Shown: piece by piece, positions 1,703-54,507 of the stretch | How positions within the stretch are numbered: the stretch's first letter is position 1 | Layout of the letters: every line of letters begins with the position of its first letter | Assembly: GCA_028278525.1 (NCBI GenBank) | Contig: JANQEE010000006.1 | Span: 124,001 to 188,000, forward strand | Source of the DNA: Minwuiaceae bacterium | GTDB taxonomy: Bacteria > Pseudomonadota > Alphaproteobacteria > Minwuiales > Minwuiaceae | Direction of reading: 5' to 3' | Length of the DNA stretch: 64,000 nt | The notes under the pieces: generated by a model | What the model saw: the letters and a program-made list of their open reading frames with translations, nothing else | Told to the model about the DNA's origin: nothing | Database searches by the model: none | Translations under genes and position numbers: made by a program

Positions 1703-1740
1703 CCCTTCGAGACGGCCCTTCGGGCCTCCTCAGGACGAGG
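1703..1740. repeat. Palindromic repeat, TTCGAGACGG family (copy B1)
   Basis: Begins CCCTTCGAGACGGCCC and ends GGGCCTCCTCAGGACGAGG. The inner GGCCC/GGGCC forms a short hairpin, and related copies occur near 7982, 8330, 8394, 54399 and 54463. It lies 20 nt after the receptor stop codon. Confidence 0.8.
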
Positions 1741-1956: not shown

Positions 1957-3969
1957 ATGAGCGAAACAACGCAACGCATCGAATACGAGGAGACGAAGAG
2001 CTTCTCGTTGCTGGAACTCAGTCTGCGCGAGCGCGGGCTGAACCTGGCGAAGACCGTCGCGATCGTCTGTTCGGTGCTGAGCGTCGCGCTCGCCCTGTTC
2101 CACCTCTACGTCGCCGCGTTCGGCACGCCGGAATCGCGCTCGTTCCGCTCGACCCACCTGACCGTGATGCTGGTGCTGGCGATCCTGCTCAACCCGCTGT
2201 TCCGCCGGTCGATGCACGACCGGCTGGTCGTCGCGGGCGATCCGGATAACTGGAAACGGGTGCTGGGTTTCGGGGTCGATCTTGTCCTGGTCGGGCTCGG
2301 TCTGTTCGTCCAGGTCTATACGCTCCACGACGTGCAGGCCTTCCTGGAACGGCAGGGCGACATCTCGGGCACGGATGTGGTGGTCGGGACCATCATGGTG
2401 CTGCTGGTGCTGGAGGCGACGCGGCGCACGGTCGGCGTGGCGATGGTGCTGATCACCGCGTTCTTCATCGTACACACGCTCTATACGCCGCACTTCTTCG
2501 GCATCTTCTACGGCCCGCCGACGTCGTTCCAGAAGTACATCGACCTGATCTTCATGCGGACGGAGGGGATCTTCGGCATCCCGATCTTCGTCGCTTCCAC
2601 CTATATCCTGCTGTTCATCCTGTTCGGCGCGGTGCTGCTTCGGTCCGGCGCCGGGCGGTTCTTCATCGACCTGGCGATCTCGCTCACCGGCCACCGCATG
2701 GGCGGGCCGGCCAAGGCTTCCGTTGTGGCCAGCGCCTTCATGGGCACGGTCTCCGGCTCGGCGGTGGCCAATGTGGTGACGACCGGCTCGTTCACCATCC
2801 CGTTGATGAAGCGGCTCGGCTACCGGCCGAAATTCGCCGGCGCGGTCGAGGCCTGCGCGTCGTCGGGCGGACAGATCACGCCGCCGATCATGGGCGCCGC
2901 GGCGTTCATCATCGCCGAGTTCCTGCATGTCAGTTACCTGTGGGTGGTGGTCGCGGCGGTGATCCCGACCTTCCTCTATTTCGCCACCATGTACTTCATG
3001 GTGCATCTGGAGGCGGAGAAGCACGGCATCGAGAAGGTGCCGAAGGAGCGACTGCCGCGCTTCGGCGAGGTCATGCGCGGAGGCTGGCATCTGCTGTTGT
3101 CGCTGGCTGTGCTGGTGGCGTTGTTGGTGGTCGGCTACACGCCGATGCTGTCGGCGTTCTGGGCGATCATCACGCTGGTCGCGTTAAGCTTCATTTCGAA
3201 GTCGACGCGGATGAGCGCCGCCGACCTGCTCGCGGCGTTCGAGACCGGCGTGCGCAGCACCGTGCCGGTGACCATCGCCTGCGCCTGCGCGGGCATCATC
3301 ATCGGCTCGGTCTTCACCTCGGGCCTGGGGCTCAAGTTCACCTACTCGGTGATCGACCTCGCCGGCGGGCAATTGCTGGTGCTGCTGGTGCTGACGGCGC
3401 TGGCCGGCATCCTGCTCGGCATGGGTATGACCACGACGGCGGTCTACATCACCGTCGCGGCGCTGATCGTGCCGGCGCTGGTGGAGATCGGCGTGACACC
3501 GATGGCGGCGCATCTGTTCGCCTTCTATTTCGGCGTGGTCTCGTCGATCACGCCGCCAGTGGCGCTGGCCTCGTTCGCCGCCGCGGCGATCGCCGGCAGC
3601 CGGCCGATGGCGACGGCGGTGGAATCGGCGCGCATCGGTATCGCCAAGTACCTGGTGCCGTTCGCCTTCGTCTATAACCCGAGCCTGCTGTTCGAAGGCC
3701 CGGTCTGGCTGACCGCCTATTCGGCGACCGCGGTGCTGATCGGCGTCTGGGCGCTCTCGGTCGGGCTGGAAGGCTGGTACCGCGGCGCGGTCCGGGCGTC
3801 GACCCGGATCGTCATGCTGGCGCTGGCGGCGCTGATGTTCTTTCCGCCGACGGGCTCTTTCTTCGGCCTGCCCGGCCACGCCCTGGTGCTGACGGGCGGG
3901 GCGCTGATCGGCGGCTTCTACCTGCTGCGCGGTCGCGCGGCCGCGCGCGAACAGGCGGTGCGAACATGA
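1957..3969 (+). CDS. TRAP transporter fused permease (4TM + 12TM)
   Basis: Integral membrane protein of about 670 residues, combining the small DctQ-like and large DctM-like subunits of a TAXI-TRAP carrier, which is usual for this subfamily. Many hydrophobic segments are visible. The M-domain carries repeated glycine-rich stretches such as MGTVSGSAVANVVTTGSFT and GILLGMGMTTTAVYITVAAL, typical of the inverted-repeat transport core. I prefer ATG 1957 over the in-frame GTG 1945; neither has a strong ribosome binding site, and the start sits directly after a palindromic repeat. The stop overlaps the next gene by 4 nt (ATGA). Works with the receptor at 711-1682 in sodium-driven uptake (family knowledge). 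Confidence 0.93.
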   Translation: MSETTQRIEYEETKSFSLLELSLRERGLNLAKTVAIVCSVLSVALALFHLYVAAFGTPESRSFRSTHLTVMLVLAILLNPLFRRSMHDRLVVAGDPDNWKRVLGFGVDLVLVGLGLFVQVYTLHDVQAFLERQGDISGTDVVVGTIMVLLVLEATRRTVGVAMVLITAFFIVHTLYTPHFFGIFYGPPTSFQKYIDLIFMRTEGIFGIPIFVASTYILLFILFGAVLLRSGAGRFFIDLAISLTGHRMGGPAKASVVASAFMGTVSGSAVANVVTTGSFTIPLMKRLGYRPKFAGAVEACASSGGQITPPIMGAAAFIIAEFLHVSYLWVVVAAVIPTFLYFATMYFMVHLEAEKHGIEKVPKERLPRFGEVMRGGWHLLLSLAVLVALLVVGYTPMLSAFWAIITLVALSFISKSTRMSAADLLAAFETGVRSTVPVTIACACAGIIIGSVFTSGLGLKFTYSVIDLAGGQLLVLLVLTALAGILLGMGMTTTAVYITVAALIVPALVEIGVTPMAAHLFAFYFGVVSSITPPVALASFAAAAIAGSRPMATAVESARIGIAKYLVPFAFVYNPSLLFEGPVWLTAYSATAVLIGVWALSVGLEGWYRGAVRASTRIVMLALAALMFFPPTGSFFGLPGHALVLTGGALIGGFYLLRGRAAAREQAVRT

Positions 3970-4210: not shown

Positions 4211-4253
4211 AGCCCTCGCCCCCTAGAGGGGGAGAGGGTTGGGTGAGGGGGTG
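4211..4253. repeat. 43-bp inverted repeat, right copy (A3)
   Basis: Exact reverse complement of 1889-1931, beginning 30 nt after the small membrane protein stop. Contains GCCCCCTAGAGGGGGAG, a hairpin. With A2 it brackets the permease and the 71-aa gene. Confidence 0.88.
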
Positions 4254-4335
4254 TACGACTCCAATATCGGAAGATCCGACGGGTTTAGCCAAAGCTCAGA
4301 GTTGACTTGTTACCAGCAGGGCTCTTCGATCGGCA

Positions 4336-4380
4336 CCCCCCTCACCCTAACCTCTCCCCCCGCAAGCGTGGGGAGAGGGG
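4336..4380. repeat. Palindromic repeat, CCCTCACCC family (copy A4)
   Basis: CCCTCACCCTAACCTCTCC followed by CGCAAGCG and GGGGAGAGGGG. Near-complete inverse of A1, giving a nested order A1-A2-permease genes-A3-A4. Lies between convergent genes. Confidence 0.8.
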
Positions 4381-7981: not shown

Positions 7982-8021
7982 CGCTTCGAGACGGCCGCTT
8001 TGCGGCCTCCTCAGCGTGAGG
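7982..8021. repeat. Palindromic repeat, TTCGAGACGG family (copy B2)
   Basis: CGCTTCGAGACGGCCGC...GCGGCCTCCTCAGCGTGAGG. It overlaps the 3' end and stop codon of the GIY-YIG gene and has the same orientation as the copy at 8330-8367 on the other side of that gene. Confidence 0.85.
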
Positions 8022-8319
8022 TTTGTTCTTTGATATTGGAGCGGCGTTGTGCGAGGACGCGGATCGTTTCAAAGTCGCTGGCGATTAGGGCTTCTTTCTT
8101 GGCGCGGCTCCAGCCTTTCAGTTGGCGTTCGGTGGCGACGGCGTCGGTTATGCGGTCGAAGTCCTGGGAAAAGACGAGGCGGACGGGGCGGCGTTGTGCG
8201 GTGTATCCGTCGAAGGTTCCCGCATTGTGTTCGGCAATGCGTTTGTCCAACGAGTCTCTCGTGCTGCCGACGTAGTAGCTGCCGTCGCAGCAGTGCAGGA
8301 TATACACGAAGGCGTTCAT
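8011..8319 (-). CDS. Small GIY-YIG nuclease-domain protein
   Basis: 102-residue stand-alone GIY-YIG domain starting at ATG 8319. The opening FVYILHCCDGSYYVGST supplies the GIY and YIG-equivalent strands (YIL and YVG). An arginine (about R27) in DKRIAEHNAG and the glutamate in ATERQLKGW fit the catalytic Arg and metal-binding Glu of the UPF0213/SLX1-like group. Longer readings of this frame only translate the upstream palindrome, so they are not the start. The gene is framed by two direct copies of one palindromic repeat (7982-8021 covers its stop codon; 8330-8367 lies 10 nt before its start). Expected activity is cleavage of branched or hairpin DNA; its cellular role is unknown. Confidence 0.88.
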   Translation of the reverse strand: MNAFVYILHCCDGSYYVGSTRDSLDKRIAEHNAGTFDGYTAQRRPVRLVFSQDFDRITDAVATERQLKGWSRAKKEALIASDFETIRVLAQRRSNIKEQTSR

Positions 8320-8329
8320 TCCTGTTGGG

Positions 8330-8367
8330 CCCTTCGAGACGGTCCTGCGGACCTCCTCAGGGTGAGG
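8330..8367. repeat. Palindromic repeat, TTCGAGACGG family (copy B3)
   Basis: CCCTTCGAGACGGTCC...GGACCTCCTCAGGGTGAGG. It lies immediately upstream of the GIY-YIG start and pairs in inverted orientation with B4, 26 nt away. Confidence 0.85.
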
Positions 8368-8393: not shown

Positions 8394-8437
8394 CCTCATG
8401 CTGAGGAGCCTGCGCAGCAGGCGTCTCGAAGCATGGG
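8394..8437. repeat. Palindromic repeat, inverted copy (B4)
   Basis: CCTCATGCTGAGGAGCCTGC...GCAGGCGTCTCGAAGCATGGGC, opposite orientation to B3. The B3-B4 unit resembles a bacterial interspersed mosaic element; a matching pair occurs at 54399-54507. It ends 16 nt from the mutase stop codon. Confidence 0.82.
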
Positions 8438-37848: not shown

Positions 37849-37936
37849 GTGCCATGCCGGCCCGCTCCCCCGTCCCAACCACCCATACAGGGTACCCTCG
37901 GGGTGGTTGGGACGGGGGAGCGGGCCGGCATGGCAC
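37849..37936. repeat. Long perfect palindrome P1 (36-bp arms, 16-nt loop)
   Basis: Left arm 37849-37884 and right arm 37901-37936 are exact reverse complements by eye; the 16-nt loop contains AGGGTACCCT, itself palindromic. It lies between divergent aminotransferase genes and ends 36 nt before ATG 37973. A related element P2 is at 53848-53929 with the same loop length. Confidence 0.9.
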
Positions 37937-53847: not shown

Positions 53848-53929
53848 CTTTACCGTCCCACTCCCCCACCCGGCCACCCACGGGAGTATCCTTGCATGGG
53901 CGGCTGGGTGGGGGAGTGGGACGGTAAAG
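53848..53929. repeat. Long palindrome P2 (33-bp arms, 16-nt loop)
   Basis: Left arm 53848-53880 and right arm 53897-53929 pair with two mismatches. Right-arm sequence aligns with that of P1 (shared GGGNGGNTGGG and GGGGGAG blocks), and the 16-nt loop is related to the reverse complement of the P1 loop. It lies in a divergent intergenic region, 34 nt before ATG 53964. Confidence 0.88.
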
Positions 53930-54398: not shown

Positions 54399-54443
54399 GC
54401 CCATGTTTCGAGACGCACCCTTCGAGTGCTCCTCAACATGAGG
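54399..54443. repeat. Palindromic repeat, TTCGAGACG family (copy B5)
   Basis: GCCCATGTTTCGAGACGCACC...GTGCTCCTCAACATGAGG, after the thioesterase stop codon. Forms an inverted pair with B6 across a 19-nt spacer, like B3/B4. Confidence 0.8.
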
Positions 54444-54462
54444 ATTATGGAAGTGGCGCCAT

Positions 54463-54507
54463 CCTCATCTTGAGGAGCCGCCGGAGGCGGCGTCTCGAAA
54501 GATGGGC
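54463..54507. repeat. Palindromic repeat, inverted copy (B6)
   Basis: CCTCATCTTGAGGAGCCGCC...GGCGGCGTCTCGAAAGATGGGC, ending 11 nt before the stop of the convergent ligase gene. The pair may serve as a transcript boundary between convergent genes. Confidence 0.8.

Follow-up and report, generated by a model that had tools for sequence, protein, structure and literature searches.

In the Ssn family, reportedly described in 2025, a GIY-YIG nuclease of Neisseria is said to cut a dispersed repeat in single-stranded DNA. Ssn (SsnA/NTS of N. meningitidis) reportedly modulates transformation and has many homologues. Two further groups of dispersed palindromes are better documented. RAYT genes are reported to lie, without exception, between a pair of inverted REPs (PMC2817692), and a bulge in the REP is required by the E. 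coli RAYT (PMC8266576). CGTC-tagged REPs, which are common in alphaproteobacteria as short palindromes and dimers and are known in Neisseria as dRS3, "apparently lack a dedicated transposase" (Di Nocera 2013, PMC3733652). They are composed of a CGTC head, an 8-9 bp stem beginning with AT, a 4-5 nt loop and a CCA tail (PMC3733652), and dRS3 itself reads ATTCCC(N8)GGGAAT (PMC3898611).

The window, which is the whole stretch of 64,000 nucleotides that was analysed, was found to carry a small stand-alone GIY-YIG gene together with a palindrome (repeat A) that lies next to the gene and is dispersed in the genome. This is the arrangement reported for Ssn, a small stand-alone gene with its cognate repeat both dispersed and nearby. 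Nevertheless, the locus differed from Ssn as that family is described, because the window gene fell in a clade (clade A) separate from its sister clade, which is the one paired with GTCAT/dRS3-like repeats (100/100), and its repeat was of a bulged TGAG/TCGAA class. With this bulged stem and collar, repeat A also lay outside the described features of CGTC REPs. The GTCAT class and another repeat of the same genome (repeat C) did fit that description, with an AT-initiated stem and a CCA tail, and repeat C fitted most of the CGTC REP features. By its sequence, repeat C belongs to the dRS3/CGTC class, which is probably also the class of the Neisseria Ssn target. No dedicated transposase has been reported for CGTC REPs, but here the class was paired with clade B GIY-YIG genes. 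If the Ssn account holds, the pairs of repeats B and C with their genes would belong to the Ssn family, and clade A with its bulged repeat would be a variant.

Like a RAYT, the window gene lies between copies of a dispersed palindrome that forms inverted pairs and has a bulged stem; unlike a RAYT, it encodes a GIY-YIG hydrolase and not an HUH Y1 transposase, and the arrangement of repeat A was not always inverted (41/52 loci; direct in the window). By analogy, the clade A enzyme would resemble Ssn in chemistry and RAYT/REP systems in architecture. The RAYT analogy drawn in the preliminary description held for the architecture, that is, for the mostly inverted flanking repeats of the clade and the bulged hairpin; its statement that no established case of such a pairing existed was probably wrong, given the Ssn family.

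The window gene and its flanking repeats

The gene consists of 102 codons plus a stop (Table 1). GIY-YIG was the sole Pfam match of its protein (PF01541, E=3.5e-15), and the HUH Y1 domain (PF01797) was not among the Pfam results. The conserved residues Tyr6, Tyr16, Gly18, Arg27, His31, Glu64 and Lys68 were present, and the AlphaFold2 model had a pLDDT of 89, so that domain, catalytic Tyr, Arg and Glu, and fold all place the protein in the GIY-YIG superfamily. Its best PDB matches were the UPF0213 proteins 1zg2 and 1ywl, with Slx1 less strong; these two were the closest solved structures both in sequence and in fold, although they are Firmicute proteins. The NCBIfam search returned nothing usable and no equivalog, and the PADLOC and PHROGs searches returned no match. 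A role in anti-phage defence was considered and rejected, because of this lack of PADLOC and PHROGs matches and because phage matches were at most 45% identical. The neighbouring genes suggest an indolepyruvate ferredoxin oxidoreductase-like protein on one side and a methylmalonyl-CoA mutase-like protein on the other.

Table 1. Coordinates of the window gene, the window copies of repeat A and the two other repeat-bordered GIY-YIG genes of the genome
Feature	Position	Strand	Basis or location
Clade A gene for a stand-alone GIY-YIG nuclease (102 aa)	8011..8319	minus	Pfam, conserved residues, AlphaFold2 model
Repeat A at 3' end of gene, holding last codons and stop	7982..8021	+	Direct reading
Repeat A, 10 nt upstream of ATG	8330..8367	+	Direct reading
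Repeat A, inverted partner of the 8330-8367 copy	8394..8437	-	Direct reading
Repeat A, dispersed single copy	1703..1740	+	Direct reading
Repeat A, dispersed inverted pair, variant core CTCAA instead of CTCAG	54399..54507	.	Direct reading
GIY-YIG gene L001, repeat B on both sides	C50:160255; locus C50:159980-160525		Same genome, outside window
GIY-YIG gene L003, 75 aa, repeat C on both sides	C28:19932; locus C28:19799-20264		Same genome, outside window

Inside the downstream repeat the gene ends with ACC TCA CGC TGA, of which TGA is the stop, and this copy is computed to fold into a hairpin from which two nucleotides, GA, bulge out. Upstream of the gene, the segment 8330-8437 forms a REPIN-like inverted doublet; downstream there is a single repeat. 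The nearest two copies are direct and the inverted copy lies 81 nt upstream, so that, judged by nearest copies, the window gene has the minority (direct) arrangement. The preliminary description had presented the 102-residue gene as framed by direct copies of a palindromic repeat, one holding the stop codon and the other 10 nt from the start, with more copies at 1703, 8394 and 54399-54507. All of these copies were recovered by direct reading. The direct orientation stood for the nearest two copies, but the description was incomplete in that the upstream copy and the copy at 8394 together make up an inverted pair.

The gene that precedes the copy at 1703 is predicted to encode a TRAP-type solute-binding protein. 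A further family of inverted repeats, CACCCCCTCACCCAACCCTCTCCCCC... (43 nt, arms 100% complementary), was observed at 1772-1931 and 4211-4360, where it brackets a TRAP-transporter-like gene. Long hairpins were also seen at 37849-37936 (36-nt arms, 100%) and 53848-53929 (33-nt arms, 94%), which are CCCCC-rich, have 16-nt loops and seem to belong to a single family; Rfam returned no match for them.

Repeat families in the genome

Repeat A is a bulged hairpin with the core TGAG-stem-TCGAA, present in ∼110 genome copies as against 2 for the reversed control. In the 5.95-Mb genome the pattern TTCGAGACG-N(4,30)-CCTCAG had 94 matches and its reversed form 0, and the looser pattern TSCTGAG-N(4,34)-TCGAAGS had 112 and 2, respectively. 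Most copies were held in inverted pairs, many with the common spacer tcgtcgtgttttcaacaagttagc, and six elements had additional tandem units of 36 or 40 nt. Among the 80 copies of the own genome that were read, 38 different stem-loops were found, and the GTAG tag was absent from all of them, the TGAG/TCGAA collar being found instead. Stem pairing in these copies was 94%, whereas in 1000 shuffles of the arms it averaged 77% and never exceeded 86%; the stem therefore varies freely while the collar is fixed. For single-stranded repeat A, the computed fold was a hairpin whose 3' arm carries the 2-nt GA bulge. Compared with shuffles, the fold of the gene's 3' copy was more stable (z=-3.0), and that of the upstream copy was not.

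In the tandem-unit elements (L101, L106, L109, L110, L112 and L114) the stems differed while the element was otherwise identical, and the stems look to have been exchanged between copies. Many copies or pairs of repeat A were located inside a longer MITE-like element, for example in L089, L096, L099 and L121, whose outer terminal inverted repeats are CTAGCAGGCTGCTGAAAAAG / CTTTTTCAGCAGCCTGCTAG. A search of the own genome for an autonomous IS with the MITE-like ends CTAGCAGGCTGCTGAAAAAG found no IS-sized end pair; the embedded copies may owe their spread to an unrelated DDE transposase. Rfam gave no match, and a literature search for the repeat sequences themselves turned up nothing relevant to the A class.

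Four PF01541 genes were found in the genome, UvrC and three stand-alone genes. No repeats were seen at the UvrC gene. Each of the three stand-alone genes was bordered by a different repeat family, with 112, 61 and 58 genome matches for A, B and C and 2, 0 and 0 for the reversed controls. Repeat B is CATTGCGAG...GAAGCAATC, and repeat C is GTCATTCCGGC...GCCGGAATCC. Three copies of repeat A fall in the 653 bp around the window gene, which at genome density corresponds to a Poisson P of 3e-7, and the B and C clusters at the other two genes gave 7e-8 and 7e-11; when pairs were scored as single elements, the values for A, B and C were 2e-5, 7e-8 and 7e-6. The L003 protein is shortened because an internal stretch is missing, and this nuclease may be decaying while the copies of repeat C stay.

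A single Y1 transposase gene was present in the genome, away from the window gene, and no Y1 gene was detected in most of 16 other clade A genomes. Repeats A, B or C were found at 0/14 Y1 transposase loci (the own gene and 13 matches in other genomes). A RAYT as mobiliser of these repeats was rejected because of this lack of association.

Association across alphaproteobacteria

Two-sided DNA matches within 200 bp were found at 34/52 stand-alone GIY-YIG loci, a set in which a few loci were sampled twice, and at 0/208 shifted control intervals. Clade A was then represented by 80 loci from named alphaproteobacteria, and the A motif was required to have complementary outer trinucleotides. Within 300 bp the motif was found on the 5' side of 60 loci, on the 3' side of 68, on both sides of 52 and on either side of 76, while the reversed motif was found at 0 and the background farther out was 0.028 per 300 bp. 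At least one (L214) of the 4 loci without the motif has a visible variant, and Bradyrhizobium loci that at first appeared repeat-free carry longer-stem variants outside the first motif. The repeats were inverted at 41 of the 52 two-sided loci and direct at 11 (p=4e-5). The 3' repeat contained the stop codon in 18/68 loci, and the reading frame passed through it in 5/68.

The association was specific to the clade. Clades A and B were separated with a support of 100/100; the A motif was present at 13/17 clade A loci vs 1/43 clade B loci (10/17 vs 0/43 under a stricter rule), and the GTCAT hairpin at 30/43 clade B loci vs 3/17 clade A loci. After the catalytic Glu, clade A proteins had the segment KGWSRAKKEAL, those with GTCATnGCGA repeats had KAGSR, and most of those with GTCATnCC repeats had KxWxRxWK. 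In an exploratory, post hoc comparison, IK[AG]GSR went with GTCATnGCGA repeats in 4/6 vs 1/37 cases (p=6e-4), and the segment is a post hoc candidate for the specificity determinant.

Among 190 alphaproteobacterial relatives, a clade A orthologue (E<1e-20, with a clear gap before the next matches) was present in 16. An excess of at least 5 A repeats was observed in 16/16 genomes with the gene and in 34/174 without it (Fisher p=7e-11, a value that ignores relatedness, most of the genomes being from different families), and the median excess was 19 and 1, respectively. In the eight same-family relatives the clade A gene was absent, and A repeats were few or none above background. For the GTCAT class, genomes that carry a clade B/C gene had at least 5 repeats in 30/56 cases, and those that lack one in 9/134 (p=4e-12); a clade A gene was not clearly predictive of them (2/8 vs 7/126, p=0.09). 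In five genomes (G190, G112, G129, G079 and G024) there were 19-46 excess A-type repeats with UvrC as the only GIY-YIG protein, so that the gene is not needed for the repeats to persist. In such genomes the repeats may have outlasted the nuclease or may depend on a different enzyme, and gene loss or assembly gaps are also possible. The check proposed in the preliminary description, an enrichment of the repeat at GIY-YIG genes of related genomes, thus came out in its favour (76/80 loci, 16/16 genomes) and in a clade-specific manner. The pairing of gene and repeat is real, widespread and specific.

It was also found that the gene changes its surroundings. No neighbour gene within 3 kb was shared by 131/150 clade A protein pairs at 80-90% identity, and none by 10/26 pairs at 90% or more. 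The clearest case was Bradyrhizobium nitroreducens TSA1 (L187): compared with four other Bradyrhizobium, its locus showed homology over ∼2813-3405. This segment comprises the gene together with the inverted doublet upstream and the repeat downstream, and no homology was seen beyond it. When all pairs with homology reaching past the gene were counted, homology ended no more than 25 nt from the edge of a repeat at 21/34 ends vs ∼10 expected, a modest excess among non-independent pairs. Because in the clear cases homology between different insertion sites stops at the repeats, gene and repeats move together. A two-sided empty site was not found in a comparison of Rhizobium loci with plasmids, in which the left flanks were kept up to near the repeat.

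Possible roles of the nuclease

The observations comprise a specific pairing and co-occurrence of gene and repeat, an architecture that is conserved, stems with compensatory changes, and a gene that relocates together with its repeats. Because each of three stand-alone genes in one genome has its own repeat and the pairing recurs throughout the clade, it is not a coincidence. We consider it probable that the window gene encodes the cognate hairpin nuclease for repeat A. The protein would be a small GIY-YIG endonuclease that binds folded, single-stranded repeat A, with its freely varying stem, conserved TGAG/TCGAA collar and 2-nt GA bulge, and cuts at or beside the collar. The repeat could become single-stranded while the lagging strand is replicated, while DNA is taken up or when a hairpin is extruded. 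Such cuts and their repair might allow repeat units to be swapped, to accumulate in tandem or to insert at other sites, and might let the repeat-gene-repeat block travel between loci and genomes. That the protein also mobilises the repeat in this way is a tentative suggestion, which we would sooner doubt than accept.

A bolder reading, to which we give rather little credence, regards the gene and its flanking repeats as an autonomous REPtron-like element, with the GIY-YIG protein as a dedicated mobiliser in the role that RAYTs have for GTAG REPs. The flanking repeats are inverted as at RAYT loci (PMC2817692), the gene relocates with its repeats, both were gained together in this lineage, tandem 36/40-nt units and REPIN-like pairs occur in the own genome, and no RAYT lies beside the A, B or C repeats. 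However, the repeats also exist without a clade A gene, the MITE-type ends point to a different mobiliser for many of the copies, and no empty site was seen. Moreover, a GIY-YIG enzyme hydrolyses DNA and is not known to perform strand transfer, so insertion would need host repair. In its general form, the proposal would make GIY-YIG genes with flanking repeats a second class of REPtron that does without an HUH enzyme: a hydrolytic nuclease, evolved independently of RAYTs, that recognises a folded repeat and drives both repeat copying and its own movement, with clades tuned to repeat classes including CGTC/dRS3. This is speculative, though conceivable.

Two further accounts leave part of the data unexplained. 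The repeats are intergenic and, being dispersed, are targets for recombination, and the gene is short and mobile, so the association might be passive, with intergenic repeats accumulating, recombination between them moving the gene, and the nuclease acting on some other substrate. We regard this as quite improbable, since it explains neither the three genes with their own repeats in one genome, nor the clade-specific pairing, nor the absence of repeats near Y1 transposase genes. Even less credible is a purely cis-regulatory function of the flanking repeats, which would then act as terminators, as hairpins for mRNA stability or as sites through which the nuclease gene is autoregulated. Their placement shortly before the start codon and at the stop codon, which the 3' repeat contains in 18/68 loci, would suit such a function, as would the terminator-like scan matches at the same place on the opposite strand, but ∼110 dispersed copies, genome-level co-occurrence and clade-specific repeat types would be left unexplained.

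The finding bears on how the palindromic repeats that abound in alphaproteobacterial genomes are spread or maintained, and on the transposase gap noted for CGTC repeats (PMC3733652). A one-to-one pairing of nuclease and repeat class can be tested with a protein of 100 residues and synthetic oligonucleotides, and it would provide many natural enzyme/target pairs for studying how GIY-YIG nucleases choose their sites.
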